This document shows, piece after piece, positions 201 through 45,788 of a DNA stretch of 52,922 nt. The position numbers and the translations under genes are program-made. The stretch's first letter is position 1. Every line of letters starts with the position of its first letter. The notes beneath the pieces were generated by a model. It saw only the letters and a list, made by a program, of their open reading frames with translations, was not told where the DNA came from and searched no databases. Source of the DNA: Candidatus Omnitrophota bacterium (lineage in GTDB: Bacteria > Omnitrophota > Gorgyraeia > Gygaellales > Profunditerraquicolaceae); assembly GCA_028712175.1 (NCBI GenBank), contig JAQTQQ010000004.1, forward strand, positions 84,560-137,481. The letters are read 5' to 3'.

Positions 201-262
201 CTCTTAGCTCTTAGGAAAACTTTTCCATGATACCTACGAACGCAAGCTATGAACTAAGGACG
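201..262. repeat. Interspersed TAGCTCN element at the kdsA stop codon
   Basis: TAGCTCT (205-211) is followed by TAGGAAAAC, then, after a spacer, AAGCTATGAACTAAGGAC. The AACTAA arm supplies the TAG stop of kdsA on the minus strand (254-256). The layout agrees with similar elements near 3.8, 17.4, 24.3, 25.1 and 45.7 kb. Confidence 0.6.
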
Positions 263-1072
263 AACCACCTGCCTAATCTTTTTTACCTGCTTGAGAAGAT
301 TTTCTAGCTCTTTGAAATCAATCATATTCGCACCGTCGCAAGGTGCATTCTTCGGATCATTATGTACCTCTAGGAATAAACCATCGCAGCCAAAAGCCAC
401 GGCTGAGCGGGATAAACCGGGAACAAATTCACTTTGCCCTCCGGAACAAACGCCTTTGCCCCCGGGAAGCTGCACGCTATGCGTAGCGTCATAAATCACA
501 GGATAGCCGAAATCCCGCATTATTTTCAGGGAGCGAAAATCGGTTACCAGGTTATTATAGCCAAAACATACTCCTCTTTCGGTAATTAATATCCGCCTAT
601 TGCCTGTAGATTCAACTTTTTTGATTATCGGTAAAATATCCCAAGGAGCCAAAAACTGGCCCTTTTTAATATTTACGACTTTTCCTGTTAGGCCTGCTGC
701 CAATACGATATCTGTTTGGCGGCATAGAAATGCCGGTATCTGAATAATGTCTAAAACTTTACCTGCCTCAGGCATATCTTTTACGCAGTGTACATCGCTT
801 AAAATAGGAACCTTGACCTGCTGCTTTATCTTCTTTAAAATCGCAAGCCCTTTCTTTAACCCCGGCCCGCGGTAAGAGTCGGAAGAAAGACGGTTGGCTT
901 TATCAAAACTGGATTTAAATATAAACGGTACGCCCTGCCTTGCCGCAATTTCTTTGATCCGCCTGGCGGCGGCAAGCGAGGAACTTTCCGATTCAATCAC
1001 GCATGGCCCGGCAATAAGAACTAAAGGCGATTTATCGCCAAATTTTATATTTCCCAGATTAACCTGATGCAT
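254..1072 (-). CDS. kdsA: 3-deoxy-8-phosphooctulonate (Kdo-8-phosphate) synthase
   Basis: Condenses phosphoenolpyruvate with arabinose-5-phosphate to Kdo-8-phosphate in the cytoplasm. The 272-residue length is normal. Recognisable motifs are LIAGPCVIES near residue 20, FKSSFDKANR near 53, SDVHCVKDMP near 96, DATHSVQ, the SRSAVAFGCDGLF segment and LEVHNDP. Cys24 in GPC, with the His, Glu and Asp of the later motifs, is the residue set of the metal-dependent class; the E. coli type has Asn at that place. The start codon directly abuts the kdsB stop, so the two are translated as one unit. The last codons and the TAG stop lie inside an interspersed repeat, which may have reshaped the C-terminus. 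Confidence 0.96.
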   Translation of the reverse strand: MHQVNLGNIKFGDKSPLVLIAGPCVIESESSSLAAARRIKEIAARQGVPFIFKSSFDKANRLSSDSYRGPGLKKGLAILKKIKQQVKVPILSDVHCVKDMPEAGKVLDIIQIPAFLCRQTDIVLAAGLTGKVVNIKKGQFLAPWDILPIIKKVESTGNRRILITERGVCFGYNNLVTDFRSLKIMRDFGYPVIYDATHSVQLPGGKGVCSGGQSEFVPGLSRSAVAFGCDGLFLEVHNDPKNAPCDGANMIDFKELENLLKQVKKIRQVVRP

Positions 1073-1813
1073 TTAGTTTATCCCCTTCTGTAATTGTTCC
1101 TTTACTTTTTCTAAATCTTGGGGGGTATCTACGCCCACCGTATCGAATGTTGTTTCAATCACCTTAATTTTAAAACCTTCGCATAAAACACGCAACTGCT
1201 CTAATTTCTCAGTCTTCTCTAAATGAGAAGAAGGCAGGTTTTTGTAGGTAAAAAGGAAATCCTTGGTATACCCGTAAAGCCCAACATGTTTAAAATAAGT
1301 TACCTGCTCTACTTCGGCATTCGGCGCCAAAAACGGTATAGGGGCACGGGAAAAATACAGGGCAAAATTATTTTTATCTACCACCACCTTTACTACATTC
1401 GGGTCAAATACCTGCAGCGAATCCTCGATTTTCTTCATAATCGTTGCCATATTAACAGAAGTATCTTCCAACAATGCCCTGGCAACGCTATCAATCATCA
1501 TCGGATGGACCAACGGCTCATCCCCCTGGATATTAATAATGACCTTTACATCCAGAGGATTGACCACCTCGCTAATCCTATCTGTACCGCATGTATGTTC
1601 CCTGGATGTCATAACGGCCTTAGCCCCAAATTTTTTCGCTGCTTTAAGGATAATTTCGCTATCGCAGGCAATTATCAAATCATCCAGCATCCGGGATAGC
1701 TTCGCGCGCTCCCAAACGTGCTGCAACATAGGCTTGCCCATAATATCCGCGAGCACCTTGCCGGAAAACCTCGTTGATGAATACCTTGCAGGTATAACTC
1801 CGATTACATCCAT
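1073..1813 (-). CDS. kdsB: CMP-Kdo synthetase (3-deoxy-manno-octulosonate cytidylyltransferase)
   Basis: Activates Kdo with CTP to CMP-Kdo, the donor used by WaaA. At 246 residues the length is typical. The N-terminal VIPARYSSTRFSGK nucleotide loop, SREHTCGTDRISEV, the metal-binding INIQGDEPLV, FSRAPIPF, HVGLYGYTKDFL and the C-terminal VDTPQDLEKV are all diagnostic. It sits between hldA and kdsA without gaps, so the Kdo and heptose precursor genes form one transcription unit. Its acceptor pathway gene waaA lies about 15 kb away on the same strand. Confidence 0.97.
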   Translation of the reverse strand: MDVIGVIPARYSSTRFSGKVLADIMGKPMLQHVWERAKLSRMLDDLIIACDSEIILKAAKKFGAKAVMTSREHTCGTDRISEVVNPLDVKVIINIQGDEPLVHPMMIDSVARALLEDTSVNMATIMKKIEDSLQVFDPNVVKVVVDKNNFALYFSRAPIPFLAPNAEVEQVTYFKHVGLYGYTKDFLFTYKNLPSSHLEKTEKLEQLRVLCEGFKIKVIETTFDTVGVDTPQDLEKVKEQLQKGIN

Positions 1814-2827
1814 TTATTTTATCCTCGCCAAAAGTTCATCGCATGTTGTAACCGCCGTCCCGGACTTACCTACAACAATACCAGCGGCAAAATTAGCGAT
1901 ATGCGCTGCTTCTAATTTTGTGCTGCCGGCACAAAGAGCCAAAGTAAATGTACTGATTACGGTATCTCCTGCGCCTGAAACGTCAAAAACTTCCTGAGCT
2001 TGCGTCGGGATATGCGTAAGGCGGCCGTTATTTTCCAATAATTTCATCCCATGCTCGCCTAAAGTAACCAAGATAGAATCCAAATTGAGATATTCCAAAA
2101 TTTCCCCAGCGGCCTGATTTAGCGAATTATCCGTAAATAATTTATCAGTTCTGATTTTAAAACGGTTCGCTGTGTCCTGTATCTTAAGGTTTCTTACTGC
2201 ATTCTCAAGCTCTTTGCGGTTAGGAGTAATCGAGGTTACTCCGCGATAATACCGGAAATTTTCTTCTTTCGGATCAACCGTGATAATTTTCTTATATTTC
2301 CTTGAAAAGGCAATAAGTTTTTCAAGCAGAGCTACGTTAATCACGCCCTTGCCGTAATCTTCAATAATTATCCCGTCATATAAACCAATGTTCTTTTCAA
2401 TGAATTTTAAGATCTTAGCATTAACCTCACCCGTTAAATCATGCGTATGCTCCCAGTCCACCCTCACAACCTGCTGATGACCGGCAAGAATCCTTGTTTT
2501 TACCGTCGTATGCCTGTCTCTTTCGATAAAAATACTATCGGTGTTAATTTTTCTTTTTTTAAGCTCACCAAGTAAAATCCTAGAATTAGCGTCATCTCCT
2601 GTTACCCCGAGCAAAGTAACTTTGCCCTTAAGAGAACTGATATTATTCGCAACATTAGCCGTGCCTCCGGGAACATATTCGCGCCGATCCGCCCAAAGTA
2701 CAGGCACCGGAGCCTCAGGAGAGATCCTCTCCACAGATCCTCGGATATATTCATCAAGGATTAGGTCTCCTACAACCAGAATTTTAACCTGCTTAAATTT
2801 TTTTATAATACCCTTCAAATTCTTCAT
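1814..2827 (-). CDS. hldA: D-glycero-beta-D-manno-heptose-7-phosphate kinase (RfaE1-type)
   Basis: PfkB/ribokinase-family kinase of ADP-heptose synthesis. VVGDLILDEYIRGSVERISP near residue 18, GGTANVANN near 55 and the anion-hole motif DVSGAGDT near 282 are all present. The protein is 337 residues and stops after the kinase domain; the adenylyltransferase half found in the bifunctional HldE is absent, so a separate RfaE2-type gene must lie elsewhere. It overlaps the preceding gene by 4 bases (ATGA) and abuts kdsB. The neighbouring heptosyltransferases are the likely users of its product. Confidence 0.93.
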   Translation of the reverse strand: MKNLKGIIKKFKQVKILVVGDLILDEYIRGSVERISPEAPVPVLWADRREYVPGGTANVANNISSLKGKVTLLGVTGDDANSRILLGELKKRKINTDSIFIERDRHTTVKTRILAGHQQVVRVDWEHTHDLTGEVNAKILKFIEKNIGLYDGIIIEDYGKGVINVALLEKLIAFSRKYKKIITVDPKEENFRYYRGVTSITPNRKELENAVRNLKIQDTANRFKIRTDKLFTDNSLNQAAGEILEYLNLDSILVTLGEHGMKLLENNGRLTHIPTQAQEVFDVSGAGDTVISTFTLALCAGSTKLEAAHIANFAAGIVVGKSGTAVTTCDELLARIK

Positions 2828-3753
2828 ATTTTTTCAATTACGCTTTGCGCTAAAAGCGGAAGCATTATTTCATGATGGCCGATAATATAATAACCGTTAC
2901 CACCGGAGAGCGTAGGCCGGTTTACCACATTCTGGCTGGATCGATATTGATAAATCATATCGAAATTTGCCGCGGTAAAATTACGGACACCATTTCCCAT
3001 ATTACGCGCAAGGTTAAGCGCTTTTAAAAATACCTCGGGCAGCAATACCGCCGAACCAAAATTCAACACCACCCCTCCATGGTTCAGCGAACAAATATTA
3101 TCGACGAGAATATGAAAATCCCTTAATGAGCCCTGCGCGGTAAGGGGTGCGTCAAAAGACGGATGTTGATGGATTATATCCGTGCCGATTCCCACAAAAA
3201 CGCAAACCGGTACCTTATGTTTATAGGCGTTATAAAGCAAACTTAGATCTTTATTTGCTAAATCCGTTGTCGCTATTGCACTGGCTACCGCATAACCTAG
3301 CCCGAAACCCTTCTTAACCCCATCTTTTGCGGCACAGTTTAAGAAATCTGCTGTCTCCTTAGCCATACCAAACTTTCCGGTTTTAAGGTTCTCGGCGACA
3401 TCTTCAGAGGTTTTCCCCTGGAAGGCAATCTCAAAATCATGAATAATACCTGCACCGTTTAAACATATGCAGGTAATTATCTTTCTTTTAATCAACTCAA
3501 TCAAAACCGGATTAAGCCCGCATTTAATAACATGGGCTCCAGACATAAAAATGACTCCTTTACTCTTCTTACGCGCCGAAACAATGTCAGAAGAAACCGC
3601 CCGTAAATCCTTGGCTTTTAAGATATTGGGTAAAGAATCAAAGAAGTTGCTAAAGCTCTTAGCCTTAACAGGCCTAAGCGCAAAATCCTTCGCATTCACC
3701 TTGCTCTTACGGCTATTGACCGAATATGTCTTTATCTTATTCATTTTTATCAT
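2824..3753 (-). CDS. Deoxyhypusine-synthase-like protein of unknown function
   Basis: 309 residues with a Rossmann-like pattern. FMSGAHVIKCGLNPVLIEL near 69 and LNGAGIIHDFEIAFQGKTSE near 98 recall the NAD-binding part of deoxyhypusine synthase. VVLNFGSAVLLPE, then NFTAANFDMIYQYRSSQNVV and GHHEIMLPLLAQS, sit where that family has its glycine-rich and acidic substrate segments. The family call is by motif order only, and bacteria of this kind lack eIF5A, so another substrate is likely. Its place directly before hldA (ATGA overlap), kdsB and kdsA suggests a role in envelope sugar or polyamine chemistry, which is inference. No ribosome site precedes the ATG; the bases before it read ACCTCCTT, and a promoter ends about 12 bases upstream (3766), so the transcript may be nearly leaderless. 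Confidence 0.6.
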   Translation of the reverse strand: MIKMNKIKTYSVNSRKSKVNAKDFALRPVKAKSFSNFFDSLPNILKAKDLRAVSSDIVSARKKSKGVIFMSGAHVIKCGLNPVLIELIKRKIITCICLNGAGIIHDFEIAFQGKTSEDVAENLKTGKFGMAKETADFLNCAAKDGVKKGFGLGYAVASAIATTDLANKDLSLLYNAYKHKVPVCVFVGIGTDIIHQHPSFDAPLTAQGSLRDFHILVDNICSLNHGGVVLNFGSAVLLPEVFLKALNLARNMGNGVRNFTAANFDMIYQYRSSQNVVNRPTLSGGNGYYIIGHHEIMLPLLAQSVIEKI

Positions 3754-3765
3754 AAGGAGGTAATA

Positions 3766-3793
3766 ATTTTAGCACATTTCTCTCTTAAAGCAA
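3766..3793 (-). promoter_or_regulatory. Sigma70-type promoter close to the ATG of the 3753 gene
   Basis: On the minus strand TTGCTT (3793-3788), a 16-base spacer and TAAAAT (3771-3766). Transcription would begin about 3759, leaving a 5' leader of roughly six bases before the ATG at 3753. It would drive the hldA-kdsB-kdsA-kdsD group separately from the glycosyltransferase genes upstream. Confidence 0.45.
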
Positions 3794-3820
3794 ATCTATT
3801 TATTCTCAGAAATAAGCTTT

Positions 3821-3941
3821 TTAGCTCTTAGCTTTTAGCTTTTGGGTATTGGCTCTTAGAAAACCGTATATTAAATAATAATTCAAGCTTAATAAACACT
3901 AGGTTTTCTACGACCTAAGCGCCATGAACTAAAAACTAAAC
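3821..3941. repeat. Interspersed TAGCTCN element with hairpin core
   Basis: TAGCTCT-TAGCTTT-TAGCTTT in heptamer register (3822-3842) is followed by TAGAAAACC (3857-3865) and its exact inverted copy GGTTTTCTA (3902-3910), then AACTAAAAACTAAA. The last arm supplies the TAG stop (3936-3938) of the GT9-GT9 gene. It fills most of the 182-base gap between two genes. Confidence 0.7.
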
Positions 3942-5966
3942 CCGATCCTTGGCATTTAATATTAATTCAGCAACGGAAACCACATCCTCTACGCTTATCG
4001 CCTTAAGACAGGCAAACTCTTTTTTGCAATTATGCGCAAGGCAGCGGATACAACCTAGGTCCTTATGAAGATACTTATCACATTTACCCAACGGCCCCCA
4101 GCGCCGCACGCTTAAGCCCGGCTGATTACGCCCGAAAATCGAAATAACCGGCGTACCTAACGCAGAAGCAATGTGCACCGGTCCGGAATCATTGGATATA
4201 AACAAAACACATCTTTTGATAATGCTCGCTGTCTGGCTTAAAGAAGTCTTTCCTGCCAAATTAACCACCTTACCTTTAATCCCATGATGCAGCGTTATTT
4301 TATTTGCTAAAGACATTTCTTTGGGCCCAGATAGAATCAAAATCTTAAAACCATACAAAGCGGATATTTTTTCAGCTACCTGCGCAAAACGCTCCACAGG
4401 CCAAAGTTTTGATGGACAGCTGGCCCCGGGATTAATTGCCAATATCTTATCATTCTTTGAAATCCCTTCTTTTCTAAAAATCTCATCGACATATAGCTCT
4501 GATTCGGCTTTTAGCGGCATAAATAAATCGCCGCAAGAAGCGGTTATACCCAAACCTTTAAGCAAATCGAGATTATATTCCGCTTCGTGCTTTAAACCCT
4601 CCTGTTTTGCATGGAGTACCCTGCGGTTATTTAAGAAACCAAATTTACGGTTATAGCCCAGGCGAACGGGGATACCCGCCAAGAATACTAACAGGTGTAC
4701 GCGGTTAGTCGGATGCAAAATAACAGCCAAATCAAATTTCTTCTTCTTTAACCTGCTGGAAAATTTTAATGTGCGCAGCCAACTTTTATGCTTGCCGTCT
4801 TTATCGTAAATAATAACTTCATCTAGATAAGGGTTGCCATCAACAATGTCTCTGGCAATTGGCGAAACCATCATAGAAATATATGCCTGCGGGAATTTAT
4901 CCCTTAACGCCTTAATAACCGGGGTTGACAAAAGCACATCCCCAATACGGTCAGTTCGCGAAATAAGTATCCTGCGCAGCTGCCTATGGCTATCTTGAGA
5001 GTCCGAATTTAGCTCATTAGTAAGCAAAGATTTTACCTGATTAAAAATGTCTTCCGGTTTTATGCTCGATAAACAGGCAAGTGTCCCGAAGCGGCACAGC
5101 GCTTTTTCGCATGGGCGGCAGATAATATCCTTTTTAATAACCACGCACTTTTCTGACCAAGGACCGTATTTTGCTTCATTTGTTGGGCCGAATATCGCAG
5201 CAACCGGTATATTTAAATAGCTGGCTAAATGCATTACCGCGCTGTCATTGGTAATCAAAAGCTTTGCTTTCTTCAATAAGGCGGCCAGCTGGCTTATCGA
5301 TGTTTTTGCGCAAAGATTAATGGCCGAAGGAAGCTCTTGTTGCACATATGCGCATATAGATTGATCGTTATTATCCCCCACCGAAACTATCTTCCAGCCT
5401 TCGTTAATGAACAGGCGGCAAAGGCGGGCAAAATTTTGTTTATCCCAGCATTTAAGCTGGCTCCTTGCGCCGGGGGCAACAAGTATTAATCTATTGTTAT
5501 CAAATAAATTGTGCTCGCTTAGAATGTCTTCGACGTATTTAAAATCATCTTGCCTAATAAATAATGATTTACGCATCTTGCTATCTATTAACGCGCCGGA
5601 AAATCCAGCCCAGAATAAATGCCTGTTTTTACTATGTTTTATTTTTGAGGGGATAATACGTAAAGGCGAACTTCTTTTCTTAGCCGGCAGGAATGCCCCA
5701 AAGAAACTATTTCGCAAATCAATGACTATATCAAAATTTTCCCTGCTTAAAGCAAGAAATAACCTGGCTTTATCCATTAATTTAATATGCTTGTCAAAAA
5801 TAACCACTTTATCAACTGCCGGATTGTTAACAAAAATTTCCTTCGGGCGCATAGGTACAAGGCAGGTAATTTTTGCATCGGGGTACCTAGAACGCAAGGC
5901 GTCTAAAACCGGCAGGGTTAAAATACAATCACCGATATTGCTTAAAGTTATAAAGAGGATTTTCAT
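3936..5966 (-). CDS. Tandem fusion of two GT9 heptosyltransferase-like domains
   Basis: 676 residues, about twice a normal WaaC/WaaF protein. Domain one starts MKILFITLSNIGDCILTLPV and has its C-terminal NDSAVMHLASYLNIPVAAIF donor-site segment and a Cys cluster (CRPCEKALC, then LACL). Domain two starts near residue 331 with ILISRTDRIGDVLLSTPVI and ends with SNDSGPVHIASALGTPVISI and CIRCLAHNC. Both retain the GD motif after the first strand and the Cys-rich tail usual in GT9 proteins, so both halves look active. They probably transfer heptose or a related sugar to the LPS inner core at the cytoplasmic face. It overlaps the waaF-like gene by 4 bases. The two halves are clearly diverged, so this is not a recent duplication. 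Confidence 0.85.
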   Translation of the reverse strand: MKILFITLSNIGDCILTLPVLDALRSRYPDAKITCLVPMRPKEIFVNNPAVDKVVIFDKHIKLMDKARLFLALSRENFDIVIDLRNSFFGAFLPAKKRSSPLRIIPSKIKHSKNRHLFWAGFSGALIDSKMRKSLFIRQDDFKYVEDILSEHNLFDNNRLILVAPGARSQLKCWDKQNFARLCRLFINEGWKIVSVGDNNDQSICAYVQQELPSAINLCAKTSISQLAALLKKAKLLITNDSAVMHLASYLNIPVAAIFGPTNEAKYGPWSEKCVVIKKDIICRPCEKALCRFGTLACLSSIKPEDIFNQVKSLLTNELNSDSQDSHRQLRRILISRTDRIGDVLLSTPVIKALRDKFPQAYISMMVSPIARDIVDGNPYLDEVIIYDKDGKHKSWLRTLKFSSRLKKKKFDLAVILHPTNRVHLLVFLAGIPVRLGYNRKFGFLNNRRVLHAKQEGLKHEAEYNLDLLKGLGITASCGDLFMPLKAESELYVDEIFRKEGISKNDKILAINPGASCPSKLWPVERFAQVAEKISALYGFKILILSGPKEMSLANKITLHHGIKGKVVNLAGKTSLSQTASIIKRCVLFISNDSGPVHIASALGTPVISIFGRNQPGLSVRRWGPLGKCDKYLHKDLGCIRCLAHNCKKEFACLKAISVEDVVSVAELILNAKDRV

Positions 5967-7000: not shown

Positions 7001-8101
7001 TTATTGGCACCTTCGCCCTAGACATTTATTATAGATCCTCTCTGTTTTATCAACCATATCTTCTTTTGCAAAATACCCTGAAATGAATTTACGCGCGTTT
7101 ATTCCCATACTACGGCGCAGCTGCCCGTCTCTAAGCAGCGCAATAATCGCGTCGGCCAAGCCTTGAGAATCAGCAGGATTAACAAGTAACCCGTTAATTT
7201 TATCCTGAATTAAAGTTTTTATTCCTCCTACCTTCGAGCCTACCACGGCCAAGCCCTGCGCCATTGCTTCCATAAGCGCAAGACCTAAACCTTCCTGCAG
7301 TGAGGGCATTACAAAAATATCCATTGCCGAAAGAAGATCCTCAGTCCGGCCTGCCTTGGGTAGAAATAAAACATAACCCTTAATACCCAGCTCCTCGGTT
7401 TCTTTAACCAAAGCCTCCCTGGTTTTACCCTCTCCAACAATAAGCAATTTTATGGAAGAAAAAGTTTTTATGACCCTATGCACCGCCCGAATAAGATAGA
7501 CATGGCCCTTTACATCTGAAAGCCGGGCAATAATACCGACCAAAGGCTCATCTTTTACCCCAAGATTCTCACGCATATTATCCCTTTGGGAGAAATCGCC
7601 GAAATTCTTTATATCAATTCCGTTATTTATTACGCATATTTTTGCCTCATTAAGCTTAAAATCAGAGATCAAATGCTCCTTTACCTCCTGGCTTATAGCA
7701 ACTATATACTCCCCCCAACAAGGAAAAAGCCTGCGCGATAATTTCGGCTTGAAAAAACCGTGGCATGTAAAAACATGGGGGATATTAGCGGCACGGCTTA
7801 ATAAATTGCCCAAAACCTGGGTAGTGCGGCTATTAGAATGGACCAAATCAATATTATTAGCTTTTAACGCTTTATTTAATACAAAAAAACTGGAGATAAT
7901 TTTCGGGCTGATTTCTTTTTTCGTATTTAGCGCAACCTTGATATGGCTTATCCCGGACTCGGTAAACTTATCTGCCAATTCTCCGCCGCTTGAAGCCAGA
8001 TAAATATTATGGCCTTTTTCTTTTAAGCCGGAGGCCAAAGTAAATAAATAACTGGAAATTCCGCCGACATTAAGATGATTGGCAATAAACAGTATATTCA
8101 T
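7001..8101 (-). CDS. GT4-family glycosyltransferase
   Basis: GT-B retaining glycosyltransferase of 366 residues. The N-terminus MNILFIANHLNVGGISSYLF has the GG turn of GT4 enzymes, followed by VHSNSRTTQVLGNLL and FTCHGFF. The C-terminal half has GIIARLSDVKGH and the EX7E nucleotide-sugar motif in SLQEGLGLALMEAMAQG. The ATG at 8101 is preferred to the GTG at 8113 because a GAGG ribosome site lies about 6 bases before it inside TTAGGTGAGGGTGCGG. The site could be masked by pairing with CCGCACC 58 bases upstream. The enzyme belongs to the LPS core cluster; the sugar it transfers is unknown. Confidence 0.85.
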   Translation of the reverse strand: MNILFIANHLNVGGISSYLFTLASGLKEKGHNIYLASSGGELADKFTESGISHIKVALNTKKEISPKIISSFFVLNKALKANNIDLVHSNSRTTQVLGNLLSRAANIPHVFTCHGFFKPKLSRRLFPCWGEYIVAISQEVKEHLISDFKLNEAKICVINNGIDIKNFGDFSQRDNMRENLGVKDEPLVGIIARLSDVKGHVYLIRAVHRVIKTFSSIKLLIVGEGKTREALVKETEELGIKGYVLFLPKAGRTEDLLSAMDIFVMPSLQEGLGLALMEAMAQGLAVVGSKVGGIKTLIQDKINGLLVNPADSQGLADAIIALLRDGQLRRSMGINARKFISGYFAKEDMVDKTERIYNKCLGRRCQ

Positions 8102-8113
8102 CCGCACCCTCAC

Positions 8114-13624: not shown

Positions 13625-13669
13625 TAGCCTCTTAACTCTTAGTTCGAAGGCCTTAAACCGCAGAAACCA
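13625..13669. repeat. Degenerate interspersed TAGCTCN element
   Basis: TAGCCTC-TTAACTC-TTAG in heptamer register followed by GCAGAAACC resembles the left half of the other elements; the right arm is not convincing. It lies in the 263-base gap 13487-13749, which otherwise holds the two promoter-like sites described separately and no credible gene. Confidence 0.35.
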
Positions 13670-17352: not shown

Positions 17353-17366
17353 GCTTTCTCCATCTA

Positions 17367-17458
17367 TAGCTCGTAGCTCGTAGGAAAACCGATTAATAGC
17401 CTATGAAATATTAGTTCAATACAGCCAACAAACTATCAGCTACAAACCAAAAGCTAAA
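17367..17458. repeat. Interspersed TAGCTCN element
   Basis: TAGCTCG twice in register (17367-17380) and TAGGAAAACC, then after a spacer AACTATCAGCTACAAACC and AAAGCTAA. The element ends one base before the xer stop codon (17459-17461). Confidence 0.65.
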
Positions 17459-18334: not shown

Positions 18335-20332
18335 TTATGAGCTATCCTTTTCCTCTTTATCCTCGGGTAGAGTACGCGAGGTAAATGTGCACTTAGGGAA
18401 ATTAGAACAGCCAAAAAATACCCCGCGTCTTGAATGCCGCTCGATCAATTCACCCCCGCAATTATCAATAGGACACCTAACCCCCGAGGTGATCGATTTA
18501 GAGTTCTTGCACTCCGGGAAACCTGAACAACTTAAAAATTTACCGCGCCTGCCCCATTTAACAATCATCGGCTTGCCGCATTTCTCACAAACCTGGTCCG
18601 TAGTTATAACTTCTTTAACAATATTCGCCTGCGCAAAATCCAAACTTTGCTTAAACGGAGCATAAAAATCATCCAAAACCTTTTGGCGGCTAAGTGAACC
18701 CTCTTCAATCTCATCCAGCTCCTCTTCCATAAGTGCGGTAAATTTAAAATCAAGGATCTTAGGGAAATATTCAACCAGCATATCATTAACCTTAAACCCT
18801 AACTCCGTAGGATAAAGGTAACCTTTTATCCTACGCACATAATCGCGCATGATAATCGTATAGATAATCGGGGCGTAAGTTGAAGGACGCCCGATACCTT
18901 CTTCTTCCAGTGCCTTAATTAAAGAACTGTCCGAATACCTCGGCGGCGGCTTAGTGAAATGCTGAGACGGAGTAAGAGAGACCAACCCCAGAACCTCCCC
19001 TGCCTCAAGCGGAGGAATAACATTCTTTTCTTTTGATTTTTCTTCTTCTTCCTCCTCTTCATCCTTAGCATAAGCAGCAAGGAAGCCCTCAAAAATTAAA
19101 TGGCTTCCGTTAGCTACAAATAAATATTTATCCGCCATAATATAAACAGCCGTAGCTAAATATTCGGCCGGCTTCATCTGGCTGGCTAAAAAACGGCTAT
19201 AGATAAGATCATAAAGCCGCAACTGGTCATGATCGAGAAAATCTTTCAGGCTTTCAGGGGCTCGCCCTATATAGCTTGGACGGACCGCCTCATGTGCTTC
19301 CTGAGCGGATTTTTTCGCCTTAAAAATATTCGGCTTCTCCGGAAGGGATTCTTTACCAAAACTCCTTCCGATATATTCACGCACCTCCGCTATTGCCTCA
19401 GGGGCGACATTCGGAGAATCCGTACGCATATAAGTAATCAAACCTACGGGATTATCCTCCCCGATATTTATTCCTTCATAAAGCTGCTGCGCGATCAACA
19501 TAGTTTTTGAAGCGTTAAACCTAAGCTTATTAAACGCCTCCTGCTGCATAGTGCTTGTAATAAACGGCGCCGGGGCATAACGCTTTTTTTGGGTTTTTCT
19601 AACCTCCAGAACCTTAAACTCTTTATTTTTTAGGTTATCACAGATACTCTGCGCATCTATCTCGGATATAATCTTTGCTTCTTTACCGTCAATTTTATCA
19701 AGCTTTGCGGTAAATGCACTCTCCCCGGAAACTTTAGGCTTGAATAATTCAGCCACAATCTCCCAATACTCGCTGGCAACAAATTTTTGAATAAGGCGCT
19801 CCCTCTCCACGATAAGCCTTAACCCCACGGATTGCACGCGGCCTGCACTTAAGCCCCGAGCAAGTTTTTTCCATAATAAAGGGCTTAAAAAATACCCTAC
19901 GATACGGTCAAGGATACGTCGGCCGACCTGCGCTTCAATCATATTAAGATCGAAGTTACGGGCGCTTTTAAAAGCCTCGCCAACGGCATGCGGGGTAATT
20001 TCATGGAAGCTAACACGCAAGACTTCTTTAGCCTTAAAAAGCTTTTCTTTTATCTGCCAGCCGATCGCCTCGCCTTCACGGTCAGGATCGGTAGCGATAT
20101 ATATATTTTCTTTTCCTTTGGCTTCTTTTTTTAACTGCGCCAATAATTTCTTCTTAATCGGAATAACCACGTACTCCGGTTTAAAATTATTTTCTACATC
20201 TACGCCTAATTTCTTTGCGGGCAAATCGATAATATGGCCCATGGATGAAACCACGGTAAAATCTTTGCCTAAAATCTTGCCGATAGTCCTGGCTTTGGTT
20301 GGCGATTCGACAATTACTAAATTTTTACTCAT
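18335..20332 (-). CDS. topA: DNA topoisomerase I (type IA)
   Basis: Relaxes negative supercoils. 665 residues: Toprim domain (LVIVESPTKARTIGKILG, IYIATDPDREGEAIGWQIKE), VGRRILDRIVGYFLSPLLWK, GRVQSVGLRLIVERE, the catalytic Tyr in GLITYMRTDSPNV near 302, and EALEEEGIGRPSTYA-type helices (here IKALEEEGIGRPSTYAPII). The tail has two tetracysteine zinc ribbons: CEKCGKPMIVKWGRRGKFLS with CSGFPEC, and CPIDNCGG with CSNFPKC. Two ribbons rather than three or more make it a short form. An acidic stretch DEEEEEEEKSKEKN interrupts the core near 430. It lies between dprA and xer, a common bacterial order. Confidence 0.98.
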   Translation of the reverse strand: MSKNLVIVESPTKARTIGKILGKDFTVVSSMGHIIDLPAKKLGVDVENNFKPEYVVIPIKKKLLAQLKKEAKGKENIYIATDPDREGEAIGWQIKEKLFKAKEVLRVSFHEITPHAVGEAFKSARNFDLNMIEAQVGRRILDRIVGYFLSPLLWKKLARGLSAGRVQSVGLRLIVERERLIQKFVASEYWEIVAELFKPKVSGESAFTAKLDKIDGKEAKIISEIDAQSICDNLKNKEFKVLEVRKTQKKRYAPAPFITSTMQQEAFNKLRFNASKTMLIAQQLYEGINIGEDNPVGLITYMRTDSPNVAPEAIAEVREYIGRSFGKESLPEKPNIFKAKKSAQEAHEAVRPSYIGRAPESLKDFLDHDQLRLYDLIYSRFLASQMKPAEYLATAVYIMADKYLFVANGSHLIFEGFLAAYAKDEEEEEEEKSKEKNVIPPLEAGEVLGLVSLTPSQHFTKPPPRYSDSSLIKALEEEGIGRPSTYAPIIYTIIMRDYVRRIKGYLYPTELGFKVNDMLVEYFPKILDFKFTALMEEELDEIEEGSLSRQKVLDDFYAPFKQSLDFAQANIVKEVITTDQVCEKCGKPMIVKWGRRGKFLSCSGFPECKNSKSITSGVRCPIDNCGGELIERHSRRGVFFGCSNFPKCTFTSRTLPEDKEEKDSS

Positions 20333-21959: not shown

Positions 21960-22080
21960 TGATTTGATAGACTATAGCTAGGGCCAATAAAACCGGCATA
22001 TTGAGATTTTTATCGGCCATAGACTATAGATTGTTGAGGCTGATTGGGTACAACCTTCGAACTAAGAACTGACAAACTAG
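21960..22080. repeat. Compound interspersed element: ATAGACTATAG repeats plus AACTAA arm
   Basis: ATAGACTATAG occurs at 21967-21977 and again at 22019-22029. Between them GGCCAATAAAA and TTTTATCGGCC form an inverted repeat with one mismatch. The end reads CGAACTAAGAACTGACAAAC and provides the TAG stop of the spoVG-like gene (22077-22079). It occupies nearly all of the 140-base gap. Confidence 0.6.
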
Positions 22081-22334
22081 CTGCCTTGATACGCCTCCAA
22101 AACAGCTTCACTTAATTGAAGCTTAAGCTCTTTTGATTCCGGATAAACGGTGTCATACCATTTCCCATCTTTGCCCTGATGGCGCGGCATGCTCACAAAT
22201 AATCCCTTTTCGCCGTTTACCACGCTAAAGCCTTTAATCAAGATACCCGAAAACGAGACATCCGCAAAAGCCTTAAGCTTGGAATCTGTTTCAAGCTTAT
22301 AGATACGGCTGACGCTTATTGCATTACTTCCCAT
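22077..22334 (-). CDS. spoVG: SpoVG-family RNA/DNA-binding regulator
   Basis: 85 residues. The pattern SVSRIYKLETDSKLKAFADV, IKGFSVVNGEKGLFVSMPRH and YPESKELKLQLSEAVLEAYQ follows SpoVG along its length, including the GLFVSMP signature. SpoVG proteins bind nucleic acid and tune many genes; despite the name they are common in non-sporulating bacteria, and no sporulation gene is seen here. The ATG at 22334 is chosen over the GTG at 22343 because the AAGGGGG ribosome site is 8-9 bases before it and would touch the GTG. Sits between aroK and aroC but has no known tie to that pathway. Confidence 0.88.
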   Translation of the reverse strand: MGSNAISVSRIYKLETDSKLKAFADVSFSGILIKGFSVVNGEKGLFVSMPRHQGKDGKWYDTVYPESKELKLQLSEAVLEAYQGS

Positions 22335-22404
22335 TTCAATCACCCCCTTCTTAAGCTAATAGACGAAAGAGGCGATTTTTTCTCACAAAGTATTTTTCTT
22401 CGGG

Positions 22405-24305: not shown

Positions 24306-24319
24306 TTTATTTCTCCTTT

Positions 24320-24405
24320 TAGCTCATAGCTCATAGCTCATAGCCCTTAGCCTGCAACCCGCAGAAAACCTCTGTAATGAAACCCGCGAGCTGATAGCGA
24401 TGAAC
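24320..24405. repeat. Interspersed TAGCTCN element with four heptamers
   Basis: TAGCTCA three times and TAGCCCT in exact 7-bp register (24320-24347), then GCAGAAAACC, TGTAATGAAACCCGCGAGCT and GATAGCGATGAACCAA. It begins 15 bases upstream of the nuclease ATG and ends just before the DUF3786 stop (24412). Confidence 0.75.
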
Positions 24406-24411
24406 CAAATA

Positions 24412-24998: not shown

Positions 24999-25018
24999 TC
25001 ATTTTAAGCTTGGCAGAA

Positions 25019-25075
25019 TATAGCCGATAGACGATGGAATATAGAATAGCCGATGGACGGTTGACTATAGTTAAT
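25019..25075. repeat. TAGACGA-type repeat cluster
   Basis: ATAGCCGATAGACGATGGAA, then ATAGAATAGCCGATGGACGG and TTGACTATAG form degenerate tandem copies of a GATAGACGATGG-like unit. The same words occur inside purM near 47.38 kb and, as ATAGACTATAG, near 22 kb. Confidence 0.6.
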
Positions 25076-25105
25076 AAAATTAAATATCCTACGTATTTTA
25101 GCTGT

Positions 25106-25180
25106 TAGCTCATAGCTCTTAGTCCCTAAAAAACCATTACAATGAAGCCTGCGAGCTACGAGCAACAAACTAAGAGCTAA
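25106..25180. repeat. Interspersed TAGCTCN element
   Basis: TAGCTCA-TAGCTCT-TAG (25106-25122), CTAAAAAACC, AATGAAGCCTGCGAGCTACG, and a right arm CTAAGAGCTA (25170-25179) that is the exact inverse of TAGCTCTTAG (25113-25122). It lies just upstream of the helicase promoter, so a hairpin or protein bound here could affect that promoter. Confidence 0.7.
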
Positions 25181-25190
25181 ATGAAAATCG

Positions 25191-37570: not shown

Positions 37571-37617
37571 TTTAGCATTATGCGGCTTAGCTGATAGCTA
37601 TCAGCTAAGAACTAAAT
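37571..37617. repeat. Interspersed element with perfect 24-bp palindrome
   Basis: CTTAGCTGATAG and CTATCAGCTAAG (37586-37609) form an uninterrupted palindrome, followed by AACTAAAT as in the other elements. It lies between the 53-residue gene and the DUF1622 gene. It could form a cruciform or bind a dimeric protein; no T-run follows on either strand. Confidence 0.8.
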
Positions 37618-37629
37618 CAGCTCTTTGTA

Positions 37630-37956: not shown

Positions 37957-38102
37957 CTTATGCGCCTTCCTTTCTTTCTATAACAATTTATCCGGATTAT
38001 TCAATTGTACCCGGGGCTTATAAGAAAACAAACTGATTGAACTTGGAATGGTCACTTCCCCTATTGGAATAATGGTATCTGGCATTTTCTATTTTTATAT
38101 AT

Positions 38103-39031: not shown

Positions 39032-39033
39032 TA

Positions 39034-40736: not shown

Positions 40737-41794
40737 ATTATTTTACTTATCCTTTCTACGGCATCTTTAATAGTGGAAAATATTTCCTTATAAAATTCGT
40801 AGGACCCTCCAACAGGGTCGGCAATGTTTAAGCTATTGTCATTTATTTTAGCAAACTCTTTTAATAAAAACAGCCTATTTTTGACTCTGGGAGCAAGCTC
40901 TAAAACCCTCTCCTCGTGAATTTTTTCCATCACCAAAATAATATCCGCACGGTCAACTAACTCTTTTGTCACTCTTTGGGCCCGGTGCATCCCTGCATCT
41001 ATGCCTTCTTGCGCAAGCACCTGCCGCGTCTCAAAACTTGCGCCGGCGCCCTCAAGCGCCATCATCCCGGCGCTTGAAACCTCGACATCTTCTCTTTTCA
41101 TTTTTGTCAGGAGTTTTTTTAAATACATCTCCGCCATTACTGAACGGCAGGAATTTCCTGTGCAGACAAAAAGTATTCTTTTAAATTTAGTTACAGCGTT
41201 TATCTCTTCGTCTTTTATTGCGCCGTATCTGACTATCTTTAACGTCCCGGCCGATAAATCAACGATGGTAGATTCTACCCCCAATTTTGTCGGGCCTGCA
41301 TCGATAGCTAAATCCACAAGGCCGTCCAGGTCTTTAATTGCTTGCTGAAAATCTCCGGGCGCAGGATTATCCGAAATATTCGCCGAAGGACAAGCCAGAG
41401 GAACATCCGCCCGAGCGATAACCCCTAAAGCAATCTGATTATCCGGAATGCGCAGGCCGACTTTATTCTGTTCCGCTGCATTTAATATAATTGTAAGCGG
41501 GCCGGGCCAAAATTTATGCATTAGCTTGTAGGCAACCACGGGTATATCCCGGCTAAATTCTTCGGCCCTTGCTTTATCCGAAATAAGTATGGCAAAAGGT
41601 TTATCCTTGGGCCGTTTTTTAATTTCATAGAGCTTATCCAGCGCTTTTTTATCTAAGGAATTTGCGGCAACTCCGTAAACAGTATCTGTCGGTATAATTA
41701 CTAACCCGCCGCTTGTTATAATTTTAGCCGCCTGATTAATAAGGGAATCTTGCGGCTGAAGCGGATTAATTTTTATTATCTTTGTCAAACTCAT
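40733..41794 (-). CDS. Fusion of threonylcarbamoyl-AMP synthase (Sua5/YrdC) and low-molecular-weight phosphatase
   Basis: 353 residues. Residues 1 to about 195 are a YrdC domain: IIPTDTVYGVAANSLDKKAL, KKRPKDKPFAILISD, RIPDNQIALG, LACPSANISDNPAPGDFQQA and GVESTIVDLS. It makes threonylcarbamoyl-AMP for the universal t6A tRNA modification. From about 205 a low-Mr protein-tyrosine-phosphatase domain follows with the loop VCTGNSCRSVMAEM (Cys211 nucleophile, Arg at +6) and the acid in IADPVGGSYEFY. In B. subtilis the same neighbours are separate genes, ywlC and the arginine phosphatase ywlE next to rpiB and glyA. The residue after Asn is Ser, whereas YwlE has Thr there. It overlaps purE by 4 bases. 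Confidence 0.93.
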   Translation of the reverse strand: MSLTKIIKINPLQPQDSLINQAAKIITSGGLVIIPTDTVYGVAANSLDKKALDKLYEIKKRPKDKPFAILISDKARAEEFSRDIPVVAYKLMHKFWPGPLTIILNAAEQNKVGLRIPDNQIALGVIARADVPLACPSANISDNPAPGDFQQAIKDLDGLVDLAIDAGPTKLGVESTIVDLSAGTLKIVRYGAIKDEEINAVTKFKRILFVCTGNSCRSVMAEMYLKKLLTKMKREDVEVSSAGMMALEGAGASFETRQVLAQEGIDAGMHRAQRVTKELVDRADIILVMEKIHEERVLELAPRVKNRLFLLKEFAKINDNSLNIADPVGGSYEFYKEIFSTIKDAVERISKII

Positions 41795-42273
41795 ACCTTA
41801 ATTTTAGTTTTCTTAATTTTATTGCGCATCTGTTTCTTATATTTAAGAAGTTTTGCGCTAATTTTTTTATCGCCAAGCCCAAGTATAGCCAAAACAAAAA
41901 GTGCGGCATTTTTCGCTCCTGCCTTACCAATTGCCATCGAGGCAACCGGAACTCCTCCGGGCATCTGCACGGTAGATAAAAGCGAATCCATCCCTTTTAA
42001 GCTTGAAGTTTCGATTGGAATTCCGATAACCGGCAGAACTGTATGCGCGGCGATTACGCCTGCTAACGCGGCTGCTCCTCCGGCTGCAGCGATAAAGACC
42101 TGGGTCCCTTTTTTAGGGGCTTGATCAACATATTCAGCCAATTCATAGGGGGTCCTATGCGCTGATAAAACCCGCACATCAAACTTGACTTTAAATTCTT
42201 TTAATACCTTGATCCCTTCGTTAACAGTTGCTAAATCCGACTTACTACCCATGATTATGCATATTTTTGCCAT
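41791..42273 (-). CDS. purE: N5-carboxyaminoimidazole ribonucleotide mutase
   Basis: Purine synthesis step six. 160 residues: IIMGSKSDLATVNEGIKVL, VRVLSAHRTPYELAEYVDQA, AAAGGAAALAGVIAAHTVLP, VIGIPIETSSLKGMDSLLST and VQMPGGVPVASMAIGKAGA are the class I PurE pattern, which goes with PurK; no purK is seen in the window. It follows purD by 11 bases and overlaps the Sua5-phosphatase fusion. Confidence 0.97.
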   Translation of the reverse strand: MAKICIIMGSKSDLATVNEGIKVLKEFKVKFDVRVLSAHRTPYELAEYVDQAPKKGTQVFIAAAGGAAALAGVIAAHTVLPVIGIPIETSSLKGMDSLLSTVQMPGGVPVASMAIGKAGAKNAALFVLAILGLGDKKISAKLLKYKKQMRNKIKKTKIKV

Positions 42274-42284
42274 ATCCTCCCCCT

Positions 42285-43556
42285 TTATTTTAAAGCTTTC
42301 TTTGCGATATCCTTGCGGTAATGCATACCTTCAAAATTTATTTTCTCCACTGCCGCATAGGTTTTATTGATCGCATCTTTAATCGTCGCGCCCAACGCGG
42401 TTACGTCGAGGACCCTCCCTCCGTTAGTTAGAATTGTGTTTTCCATTTGCCTAGTGCCGGCATGAAAAATAACCACATCCGGCATCCGCCCGGCTTGGTC
42501 TAACCCGGTAATCTCTTTATCTTTTGGGTAATTCCCCGGATAACCTGCGCTTGCGCAAACGACACAAACACAAGCCCTGCTATCCCACTCCAAAGATCCT
42601 ATTTTAGAAAGTCTGCCTTCGCTTGCTGCCAACATCACTTCTACAAGATCCGATTTTAATCTGGGCAATATTACCTCTGTCTCTGGATCGCCGAAGCGCA
42701 CATTAAACTCTAAAGCCTTGGGGCCGTCTTTAGTCAACATTACTCCGGCGTACAAAACCCCGCGGTATCCTATTCCTTCCTGAACAAGCCCGTCTATAGC
42801 GCGGTAAATTATTTTTTGTTTGATCTCCTCTAAAATATCCGGCGTAACTATCGGAGCGGGAGAATACGCACCCATGCCTCCGGTATTCGGGCCCTCGTCA
42901 TTATCAAATACCCTTTTATGATCTTGAGAAGTAACCAAGGTAACCACATCTTTTGAATCGGTAATTACCAGAATCGAGGCCTCTTCCCCGCTCAAGCACT
43001 CCTCAATAACAATTTGAACCCCCGCTTCACCGAAAATCTTAGCCTGCATCATCGAAGTTACGGCATTTTTTGCTTCCTCAATAGTGCCGGCCACAACCAC
43101 GCCTTTACCCGAAGCTAAACCGCTAGCTTTAACTACGCACGGAACACCGATTTCATCAATATATTTTTTTGCCTCCTCCGGGCTGTTAAAGACCTTAAAC
43201 TCCGCGGTGGGCACTTTATATTTTGCCATTAACTCTTTAGAAAAAACCTTGCTTGCCTCAAGATTTGCGGCTTTGATGTTCGGCCCAAATATTTTAAGCC
43301 CGGATTTTTCAAATTCATCAACAATGCCTAAAGACAAAGCTACCTCTGGGCCAACCACTGTAAGATCAATTCTTTCCTTGCGCGCAAACCCAAGTAAACC
43401 GAAAACATCATCAGCTTTTATATCGATACACTCGGCAAGCCCGGCAATTCCGCCGTTACCGGGCGCGCAAAATACCTTATCCACCAGTTTGGATTGGGCG
43501 ATCTTCCAAACCAGCGCATGTTCTCGTCCTCCGGAGCCTACAACTAATATACGCAT
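42285..43556 (-). CDS. purD: Phosphoribosylamine-glycine ligase
   Basis: Second step of purine synthesis. ATP-grasp enzyme of 423 residues: ILVVGSGGREHALVWKIAQS, FCAPGNGGIAGL, KASGLASGKGVVVAG, EECLSGEEASILVITD, SQDHKRVFDNDEGPNTGGMG and LEFNVRFGDPETEVILPRLK. These match PurD from end to end. It starts a purD-purE pair that continues into the Sua5-rpiB-glyA run and begins 24 bases after an unknown secreted protein gene. Confidence 0.98.
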   Translation of the reverse strand: MRILVVGSGGREHALVWKIAQSKLVDKVFCAPGNGGIAGLAECIDIKADDVFGLLGFARKERIDLTVVGPEVALSLGIVDEFEKSGLKIFGPNIKAANLEASKVFSKELMAKYKVPTAEFKVFNSPEEAKKYIDEIGVPCVVKASGLASGKGVVVAGTIEEAKNAVTSMMQAKIFGEAGVQIVIEECLSGEEASILVITDSKDVVTLVTSQDHKRVFDNDEGPNTGGMGAYSPAPIVTPDILEEIKQKIIYRAIDGLVQEGIGYRGVLYAGVMLTKDGPKALEFNVRFGDPETEVILPRLKSDLVEVMLAASEGRLSKIGSLEWDSRACVCVVCASAGYPGNYPKDKEITGLDQAGRMPDVVIFHAGTRQMENTILTNGGRVLDVTALGATIKDAINKTYAAVEKINFEGMHYRKDIAKKALK

Positions 43557-43580
43557 TTACCTTCCCTTTTCTAATATTGC

Positions 43581-44267
43581 TTAAAACACATCGCCTGATT
43601 TAAGTGTAACCGCGAAAACATCCGAGAACGGGCGATCAGCTATCCAGCTATCCATAACCAGAATATCCTTTACCGGCTCATCCTTACGGGGATTGGTAAA
43701 ACTAATATGAAACATGCTGCATTTTTTGCGTACCGGGTTTTCACCCAGAGACTTAATCCTTGCCCCATCTTTACTCCATGAACCCGGGCCTAAACTAAAC
43801 CAATCCCAAAATACAGGCACGGACATTTCTTTATAAACTCCGTCTTCATAAACAAAAATAACCGTAAGTGTTGCGTAAAAGTACTTGTCTCCGTACAAAC
43901 GCATTAATCCGTCATGCTCATAACTATTGCCGTAATTTCCTCCTGCCAAGAAATGAACTTCCTCAACCTTTATCCCGGCTGAAATAGGAAGAGAAAAAAT
44001 ATTATTACCTTCAAGGTTAAGCCTTCCGTAATCGATCCAATTACTTGCCCCGCGAACCAGAAAATTAATCCCGTCGTATTTCAAATATTTATGGGCAAAC
44101 TGGTTGGGCCCTGCACCCGGCAGGCTAAAATTCTGACGGGTATCTTTGCTAAGATAATAGTAATCCCCCTGCCTTTCCCACTCTCCTGCCAGACAAACAG
44201 GCAGGCCCGTAAAAAACAGCGCCAAAGGTAAAAACACTGTTGCTATAACAGATAAAATTTTCTTCAT
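43581..44267 (-). CDS. Secreted or periplasmic protein of unknown function
   Basis: 228 residues with a clear signal peptide (MKKILSVIATVFLPLALFF, cleavage probably after VCLAG). The mature part is rich in Tyr, Trp and Gly and looks like a beta structure: GEWERQGDYYYLSKDTRQN, YLKYDGINFLVRGASNWIDY, LAGGNYGNSYEHDGLMRLYG and VFWDWFSLGP. This is reminiscent of carbohydrate-binding modules in having jelly-roll-like aromatic turns, but no family is recognised. Three bases of overlap link it to the YbaB gene (1-base overlap of stop and start). Confidence is high that it is a gene, low on role. Confidence 0.75.
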   Translation of the reverse strand: MKKILSVIATVFLPLALFFTGLPVCLAGEWERQGDYYYLSKDTRQNFSLPGAGPNQFAHKYLKYDGINFLVRGASNWIDYGRLNLEGNNIFSLPISAGIKVEEVHFLAGGNYGNSYEHDGLMRLYGDKYFYATLTVIFVYEDGVYKEMSVPVFWDWFSLGPGSWSKDGARIKSLGENPVRKKCSMFHISFTNPRKDEPVKDILVMDSWIADRPFSDVFAVTLKSGDVF

Positions 44268-44563
44268 CAGGTTAAACCTGGAATATTAATCCCAGTAACA
44301 TCCTTCATCTTCTGCGCTGCGATATCCTGTGAACGCTTAATTGCCCGGTTAAAAGTATCCTTTAGCGAGCTTGCTAAGCGGGCTCTTTCTTGATCCTCGA
44401 GATTATCCTTGATTGTAATTTCCTGCACCACTTGAGCACCATTCATCGTAATCTTGACCGCTCCGTCCGAGCTTTGTATGTCAAAATTTGCACTATCAAG
44501 ATGGCGCTTAACCTCCTGCATCTTTTTCTGCATCTCAAATAAAGCCTTCATTTTGTCAAGCAT
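44267..44563 (-). CDS. YbaB/EbfC-family nucleoid-associated protein
   Basis: 98 residues. MKALFEMQKKMQEVKRHLDS and GAVKITMNGAQVVQEITIKD followed by KDTFNRAIKRSQDIAAQKMK are the coiled-coil and core of YbaB dimers, which bind DNA with little sequence preference. Of the two close starts the ATG at 44563 is preferred because AAAGG lies 6 bases before it; the ATG at 44569 has almost no spacing. Unlike many bacteria the gene is not next to dnaX or recR. It overlaps the VanZ gene by 16 bases. Confidence 0.88.
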   Translation of the reverse strand: MLDKMKALFEMQKKMQEVKRHLDSANFDIQSSDGAVKITMNGAQVVQEITIKDNLEDQERARLASSLKDTFNRAIKRSQDIAAQKMKDVTGINIPGLT

Positions 44564-44922
44564 GAGCATCCTTTCCTGATCTTAATAAAAATAAAGAAAC
44601 CAATAATACCAAGGGCATCGATTAAAACATCTCCCAACGAACAATTCCTGCTTAAAACAAAATATTGATGGATCTCATCGCTTATAGCATAGAGCAGGGC
44701 AAAAACGCCCGAATAGATATAAAGGCGCCAGGGATTCATGTTAAACGATCCTTTAAATGCCCGGTATAAAAGAAAGGTAAGAATAAAATATTCAAAGATA
44801 TGCGCAAGCTTTCTTAGAACAAAATCATATTCAAGTTCTGTCTCTAAACCGGATATACTGGAAAACAAGAATATGCCCCCTGCCCAGATAGCTACCGGAA
44901 CCCATAATTTAATAAACTTCAA
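44548..44922 (-). CDS. VanZ-like membrane protein
   Basis: 124 residues with four hydrophobic segments. FLFSSISGLETELEYDFVLR with KLAHIFEYFILTFLLYRAF is the conserved VanZ segment, and FALLYAISDEIHQYFVLSRN with SLGDVLIDALG is the second, containing the DE-x-x-Q motif. VanZ-like proteins affect glycopeptide sensitivity or envelope phosphatase activity in other bacteria; the role here is unknown. Overlaps ybaB and is 3 bases from the cupin gene. Confidence 0.88.
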   Translation of the reverse strand: MKFIKLWVPVAIWAGGIFLFSSISGLETELEYDFVLRKLAHIFEYFILTFLLYRAFKGSFNMNPWRLYIYSGVFALLYAISDEIHQYFVLSRNCSLGDVLIDALGIIGFFIFIKIRKGCSCLTK

Positions 44923-44925
44923 CTG

Positions 44926-45246
44926 CTACTCCTTTATCATGACTAAAAGCATCTTAAAGCGGTCTATCGCCTTAAGGGAATGCGGCTTATTTGACGGCAT
45001 AATAATAGTTTCACCGGTTTTTAAAGAATGCGGTTTACCGGAAATATTAATCTGGGCATTTCCGTCAAGAATATATACCAAAGCGTCGAAAGGCGCAGTG
45101 TGTTCGCTTAGCCCTTGGCCTTTATCAAAAGCAAAAAGCGTTACTGTCCCCTTACCCCTCTTAATAACTTCCTTACTGACAACAGAGCCATCCTGATAGT
45201 CGACTAAACTAACCAGGTTTCCTGCTTTTTCGGTTATATCTATCAT
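44926..45246 (-). CDS. Small cupin-domain protein
   Basis: 106 residues forming one cupin barrel. LFAFDKGQGLSEHTAPFDAL holds the first His of motif one (S-EH), with a Thr where a second His is common. DGNAQINISGKPHSLKTGET and IIMPSNKPHSLKAIDRF supply motif two with one His. The reduced ligand set means metal binding is uncertain. Cupin_2 proteins of this size are often small-molecule sensors or isomerases; nothing in the neighbourhood settles it. GAGAAG precedes the ATG at 45246, 10 bases from the inverted repeat. Confidence 0.85.
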   Translation of the reverse strand: MIDITEKAGNLVSLVDYQDGSVVSKEVIKRGKGTVTLFAFDKGQGLSEHTAPFDALVYILDGNAQINISGKPHSLKTGETIIMPSNKPHSLKAIDRFKMLLVMIKE

Positions 45247-45255
45247 TCTTCTCTC

Positions 45256-45324
45256 GAATAATGGGGTCAGAACTAATTTTCTAAAGAATAAGGGGACAGA
45301 AAATTAGTTCTGACCCCATTATTC
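45256..45324. repeat. Perfect 25-bp inverted repeat with 19-base loop
   Basis: The arm 45256-45280 (GAATAATGGGGTCAGAACTA, then ATTTT) is exactly inverted at 45300-45324; the loop 45281-45299 contains GGGGACAG, a variant of the arm word GGGGTCAG. The element fits precisely between the start of the cupin gene and the stop of the next gene. It resembles palindromic units moved by REP-associated tyrosine (Y1) transposases. No transposase lies in the window. Confidence 0.85.
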
Positions 45325-45693
45325 CTAATATATTGTTTCTTTCAGCTGATCTTCAGGCTGCTGGAAGGCCACACACTTATTATTGACGCAGGTCGGCTGA
45401 GGGGCCTTGACACAGTCATTTATTGCCTGGTCGCATTTTTCATAATATTCATACATTCTCTGATAAAGCGCCTCTTTATCAGTCACCTTATTCACAAAAT
45501 GATAGCATCCAAATCTGATCAGACGCCCTCCAAGCTCAAGAACATCGCAATCAGCGTCAGTAAAACAATAGTTAGACTTAGAAATCTCGCTTTTGATATC
45601 TTTATACATGGATTTGCAGTATTCGGATTTGCCGTCAGCAAAAACAGCAAGCGGTAAAGCGAGAAAAAGTAAAACGATTAAATTTTTTTTCAT
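45325..45693 (-). CDS. Secreted cysteine-rich protein, unknown
   Basis: 122 residues with a signal peptide (MKKNLIVLLFLALPLAVFA). The mature chain has nine cysteines: EYCKSMY, NYCFTDADCDVL, RFGCYHFVNK, KCDQAINDCVKAP and TCVNNKCVAF. The C-x-x-D-x-DC motif followed by GC and a C-x3-4-C pair recalls small disulfide-knit domains in predatory and social bacteria, but no family is named with confidence. The stop codon is the first base after the inverted repeat. GGAG precedes the ATG. The protein probably acts outside the cell. Confidence 0.72.
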   Translation of the reverse strand: MKKNLIVLLFLALPLAVFADGKSEYCKSMYKDIKSEISKSNYCFTDADCDVLELGGRLIRFGCYHFVNKVTDKEALYQRMYEYYEKCDQAINDCVKAPQPTCVNNKCVAFQQPEDQLKETIY

Positions 45694-45725
45694 TTGCTCT
45701 CCATGTTATCTCAATTTACCGGTTT

Positions 45726-45788
45726 TAGCCCTTGGATCCTAGAAAACCGTACAATCGCACCTACAGAACTACAAGCTAATAACTAAAC
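45726..45788. repeat. Interspersed TAGCTCN element (degenerate)
   Basis: TAGCCCT-TGGATCC-TAGAAAACCGT in 7-base register (45726-45750), then CTACAGAACTACAAGCTAAT and AACTAAAC. Same order of parts as the 3.8 and 17.4 kb elements. It lies between the YggT gene and the Cys-rich protein gene. Confidence 0.6.

Follow-up and report, generated by a model that had tools for sequence, protein, structure and literature searches.

Paired heptamer repeats in bacteria

Rehm and colleagues described GGGAATC heptamers in Xanthomonas that stand in convergent pairs beside stop codons and are of unknown function (PMC4692102). These intergenic 7-mers come in arrays of at least two units near or overlapping a stop codon, form convergent inverted pairs (70-75 per Xanthomonas genome), and are under-represented between divergent genes. 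In Geobacter metallireducens, tandem heptanucleotides and octanucleotides termed 'global regulator binding sites' (classes 1-3) form opposite-strand pairs at variable distance in tens of copies (PMC2700814). The repeats reported here, called family A and found in a Candidatus Omnitrophota bacterium, resemble both systems in these respects. Their architecture is of the same kind as that of the Xanthomonas and Geobacter heptamer pairs, which are their closest published relatives. However, the Xanthomonas units differ from family A in being G-rich and quadruplex-forming, with no conserved inter-arm core reported (PMC4692102), and the Geobacter sites in having other units, a class 1 linked to the insertion sequences ISGme8/9, and a function that is just predicted (PMC2700814). 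The TAACTGA heptamers of the Beggiatoaceae are, like family A, intergenic, provide stops in all three frames and are patchily distributed across phyla, but they are mostly direct repeats of a single orientation that immediately precede start codons and have no paired arms or core (PMC4679880).

MITEs and foldback elements are also short, non-coding, dispersed, nested and lineage-specific, with inverted ends. The ends of foldback elements are likewise built of short tandem repeats. Unlike these elements, family A shows no visible target duplication, and no transposase was found for it in the families searched (see below). The REP/BIME and TIRYT palindromes (PMC3733652) share with family A an extragenic location mostly downstream of genes; family A, by contrast, is without a single GTAG/CGTC tag and does not stand beside Y1 transposase genes. 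What is new over the published heptamer pairs is the shared core, a sister family, empty slots and nesting, and paired heptamer repeats are hereby extended to an uncultured phylum.

Anatomy and copy number of family A

The window, that is, the whole stretch of 52,922 nt that was analysed, corresponds to positions 84560-137481 of contig C18 of a draft genome of 1.26 Mb in 24 contigs (G000). Family A elements follow the plan (TAGCTCN)n-TAG-NAAACC-n-CAATGATACC-TA-(NGAGCTA)n, in which two inward-facing arrays of 1 to 9 heptamer units each surround a core. The elements are non-coding and about 55-160 bp long, and the aligned short copies yield the consensus TAGCTCTTAGCTCTTAGnAAACCnnnnCAATGATACCTAnGAGCTA. 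The core is asymmetric yet nearly palindromic; when the 42 loci are scored with a core consensus derived from those same copies, 14 of them reach or exceed the 99th percentile of shuffles.

An earlier note on the window had reported one plan at eight sites. Six of them show the full arrangement of heptamers, a TAGRAAACC-like core and an opposing arm, whereas the site at 13625 is a degenerate half and that at 37571 a core-less palindrome. Among the full copies, the element at 198-263 has just one exact TAGCTC heptamer, and the minus-strand gene 254-1072 has its stop codon in an arm of this element. The element at 3815-3945 lies between the stop of gene 3936-5966, which it supplies, and the promoter of gene 2824-3753. 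The paired arms at 17367-17456 and 24313-24407 (core degenerate, GCAGAAAACC) are considered below in relation to their empty counterparts. The element at 25099-25186, with the core AAAAAACCATTACAATGAAGCC (degenerate, CTAAAAAACC), stands between divergent genes, and that at 45719-45785 has paired degenerate arms and the core AAAACCGTACAATCGCACC. The two partial sites are a weak single array on the plus strand without opposing arm (13626-13649, score 14.1) and a short perfect two-heptamer palindrome, TTAGCTGATAGC/GCTATCAGCTAA, at 37591-37614. In addition, a degenerate minus-strand half-arm (TAGTTTG TCAGTTC TTAGTTC) is seen in the sequence at 22048-22083, adjoining a family B element; gene 22077-22343 stops at the first TAG of this half-arm. 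The proposal that elements supply the stops at 254, 3936 and 22077 thus holds, all three being TAG codons within element arms.

The heptamers are far more frequent than expected by chance. The two-heptamer pattern TAGCTCNTAGCTC, with at most one mismatch, has 8 matches in the window against 0.22 expected, and in the whole 1.26-Mb genome the pattern has 111 matches against one for the reversed control, split evenly by strand (55/56). This bears out the expectation that copies would exceed chance genome-wide. Seven is the sole clearly enriched tandem period among 4-12, with 288 near-perfect self-match positions against at most 19 at any other period, and the period-7 units are enriched in intergenic DNA. 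Element anatomy was studied in 813,587 bp (65%) of the genome, a sample whose densities are biased since it consists partly of contigs picked for having matches; the whole-genome heptamer counts are free of this bias. The part read holds about 40 short non-coding palindromes of family A (42 loci), and 31 of its 55 arrays are opposed by a second array no more than 300 bp away, forming the convergent pairs typical of Xanthomonas and Geobacter. If the density of this sample held throughout, the genome would have about 65 element slots. Short, non-coding, with terminal inverted repeats and in many dispersed copies, the elements have the general appearance of MITEs.

Two tandem paralogous copies were observed elsewhere in the same contig (C18:20130-20259 and C18:20446-20608), which differ by an insertion of about 54 bp with a family B arm. 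N runs occur inside or beside elements at C22:57109-57279 and C15:106033, as if the assembly broke there; annotators should be aware that gaps in draft assemblies can fall at repeats of this type.

Sister family B and nesting

A second family, B, has CGATAGN/CTATAGN heptamer arms and the core CGATAAAACC..AAATTTTTATCG, and shares with family A the AAAACC junction. In the window it is represented by an element with CGATAGN-type arms and the core AAAACC..TTTTTATCG at 21965-22044 (RNA fold z -4.64), by a degenerate plus-strand array at 25018-25073, and by a degenerate single plus-strand array, CGATAGACGATAGTCGATAGACGATAAC, at 47362-47395. The last lies inside the predicted gene 47057-48070, so the array must be translated unless the gene has been miscalled.

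Elements are nested in one another on contig C16: a family A element stands between inward-facing family B arms at 7125-7310, half of an A element is likewise enclosed by B arms at 18751-18913, and a GGGGACG palindrome is nested in the loop of an A element at 84067-84217.

Position relative to genes

With gene calls from a simple in-house caller, 36 of the 42 family A loci lie between genes of the same direction, two between convergent and three between divergent genes, and one within a gene. The upstream stop is nearer than the next start in 32 of 37 tandem elements, where 18.3 were expected, a trait of paired repeats of the Xanthomonas/Geobacter type; 20 of the 37 lie within 5 bp of that stop (5.0 expected). 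If the 50 bp before the next start are treated as untouchable, the expectation becomes 16.2, with a p value of 0.02. The closeness to the stop is therefore mostly explained by a narrow permissive slot squeezed by the signals of the next gene. The association with gene ends proposed in the earlier note is thus genuine, although a slot of this kind predicts most of the proximity to the stop.

Since the unit contains TAG and the repeat length is 7 (1 modulo 3), the arrays carry stops in all three frames, a property that MacGregor noted for TAACTGA (PMC4679880). With TAG/TAA in every frame at either end, an element that lands where a gene ends terminates translation at once, which is why the element so often supplies the stop codon. 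Typical gene/element junctions are TGA|TTTAGC and TAA|TTAGC. Genes abutting elements end in TAG in 9 of 30 cases against 140 of about 780, counts too small to claim an excess. For annotation, it should be kept in mind that the 3' ends of genes, as called, are set by the TAG in these arms. A TA-rich hot spot behind stop codons was considered and ruled out, as the TA density right after stops is 0.090 against 0.099.

Probable mobility and origin

Four syntenic congeners were compared, and at 70-80% identity the insertion points are not base-exact. With this precision, family A is present in our genome and absent from congeners at two orthologous slots: the gap holding the 17367 element (slot at 17353) measures 11-13 bp in three congeners and 106 bp here, and the gap holding the 24313 element (slot at 24306) measures 19-20 bp in two congeners and again 106 bp here. 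Corresponding gene-end slots of the congeners (L330-L339) are filled by palindrome families of their own, for example GGGGACGGTTCT..AGAACCGTCCCC and long TTTCGCCGTGTGC..GCACAC elements. The GGGGACGGTTCT..AGAACCGTCCCC palindrome stands in congeners where our genome has family B, and the slot of the B element at 21965-22044 is occupied by a different palindrome in four of them. In the distant relative G260, a TGGCTCA arm is commonly combined with a TAGCTGA arm in one element, which implies that copies descend as whole units.

The empty slots, the nesting and the distinct arms in G260 make mobility of family A likely, judging from sequence comparison. With moderate confidence, we regard family A as a lineage-specific, non-autonomous palindrome of MITE- or foldback-like type, whose mobility we infer from these patterns rather than from observed movement. 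Among the three possibilities raised in the earlier note (a mobile or replicating non-coding element, a 3'-end RNA structure or a nucleoid-binding site), the first is the best fit, given the lineage-specific copies, empty sites, nesting and distinguishable arms. On this reading, family A would have spread through the genome without coding for its own mobility, presumably copied by an enzyme that acts on its heptamer ends, and heptamers within an arm would multiply or decay singly, probably by slippage. Copies would survive chiefly between a stop codon and the start signals of the next gene, because this is almost the sole dispensable DNA.

An unlikely alternative is that the arrays are ordinary heptameric simple repeats generated in place by polymerase slippage, with the inverted partner produced by template switching, so that the repeats would be immobile and the core incidental. 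Slippage has been put forward for 7-mers before (cited in PMC4692102 and PMC4679880), and the arrays here do range from 1 to 9 units. Moreover, plain TAGCTC arrays are widespread outside the phylum among the matches listed, and pure arrays that lack both core and partner are seen in Halomonas, Alcanivorax, Salinicola, Chromohalobacter, Bacteroidota, Acidobacteria and others. However, only one of 130 arrays outside the phylum has the TAG-NAAA junction and eight of 130 are paired, among the matches listed, whereas the junction is present in 20 of 45 arrays here, 13 of 31 in G260 and 7 of 13 in G191; in G312 it is scarcely seen (1 of 22). The TAGCTC heptamer is therefore found in two settings, as a plain simple repeat and within an element. 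Exact heptamer pairs are patchily distributed, in 59 of 384 genomes of the phylum, with none in most congeners, and the same arrays are found in a named Omnitrophota record (L181). That the core and the TAG-NAAA junction are common to unrelated sites and to distant Omnitrophota, that A is nested in B, and that G260 has distinct arms all speak against slippage. As to how such repeats originate, the occurrence of whole units with a shared core, the empty orthologous slots and the nesting favour copying as elements over slippage alone.

A narrower form of the mobile reading, which we consider improbable, is that a foldback-like element inserts at TA, including the TA of TAA/TAG stops, and that the sister families A and B, which differ in their heptamers but have the AAAACC junction in common, are moved by one enzyme. 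The element end would begin with G, so that TA|G would rebuild TAG and make insertion at a gene end self-neutral. At the boundaries listed no longer target duplication was seen, and a TA duplication would be masked by the TAG of the arm.

RNA structure and binding sites

A hairpin selected at the 3' end of transcripts, which would end transcription or protect mRNA 3' ends, appears doubtful, and we give it little credence. The elements do stand directly behind stop codons and ahead of promoters. Of the six full family A copies in the window, five give a better fold than their shuffled versions (z between -1.3 and -3.2). In Xanthomonas, G4-forming heptamer repeats coincide with transcript starts or stops more often than control repeats do (PMC4692102). 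The earlier note had looked to compensatory changes in the arms and to a bias in orientation relative to genes, and neither was found. Three separate tests gave no sign of covariation: arm similarity is 0.709 within an element and 0.712 between arms of different elements; rare heptamers are common to both arms in 6 cases against 5.1 expected; and pairing cells in the alignment amount to 75.4% against 76.4% after shuffling. With respect to the upstream gene, the core faces one way in 7 cases and the other way in 6, a balanced distribution. Some copies lie 4-17 bp ahead of the next start on the same strand, without room for a promoter, and the same slots in congeners do without the element. The lack of covariation, the balanced orientation and the missing promoter room make both a conserved RNA and an efficient terminator less likely. 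No T-run stands behind the elements in the sequence, unlike in an intrinsic terminator with its GC-rich hairpin and U-tract, and Rfam returned no match above the gathering score in the window. The statement that the repeat is not a CRISPR, an IS or a classical terminator was correct. CRISPR and integron attC were dropped on anatomy alone.

That the arrays are binding sites of a DNA-binding protein, either a nucleoid protein or a global regulator, is very improbable: the direct repeats in fixed 7-bp register and opposed pairs recall the Geobacter metallireducens 'global regulator binding sites' (PMC2700814), and the arms evolve as independent arrays, but the arrays are located at 3' ends rather than promoters and are missing from the orthologous slots of congeners, and nothing points to a nucleoid-binding site in particular.

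Search for a mobilizing enzyme

Each of the seven genomes checked contains Y1_Tnp genes, and none of their 27 loci has a heptamer array within about 1.5 kb. Where the Y1_Tnp loci have ends at all, these are of the GGGGTCAG or GGGGTCAC type and are never heptamers, and no RAYT gene flanked by the repeat was found there; a RAYT link was thus ruled out. Transposases of the IS630-type DDE_3 family are absent from G000, and those of DDE_Tnp_1 from G000, G260, G191 and G312. In the search for an autonomous copy, whose arms would lie 0.4-3 kb from each other, the sole close pair of facing single arrays (C16:16889 and C16:18836) has ordinary genes between the two arrays as judged by eye, and heptamer arrays are present on viral contigs, among which there is no clear carrier. 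No autonomous partner with matching ends was therefore found within DDE_3, DDE_Tnp_1 and Y1_Tnp, and because the search covered these transposase families only, family A is not classified as a proven MITE.

Three Y1_Tnp loci (L329, L424 and L427) are flanked on either side by ends of the GGGGTCAG or GGGGTCAC type. Within the window, a perfect 27-bp inverted repeat with GGGGTCAG (GAATAATGGGGTCAGAACTAATTTTCT) was observed at 45256-45324, and its GGGGTCAG ends also flank a Y1 transposase gene of the same genome (L329). These ends fit the GGGGWSAS motif of TIR-associated tyrosine transposases (PMC3733652). At around 2490-2600 of L329, the sequence upstream of a gene resembles, by eye only, a c-di-GMP-I riboswitch.
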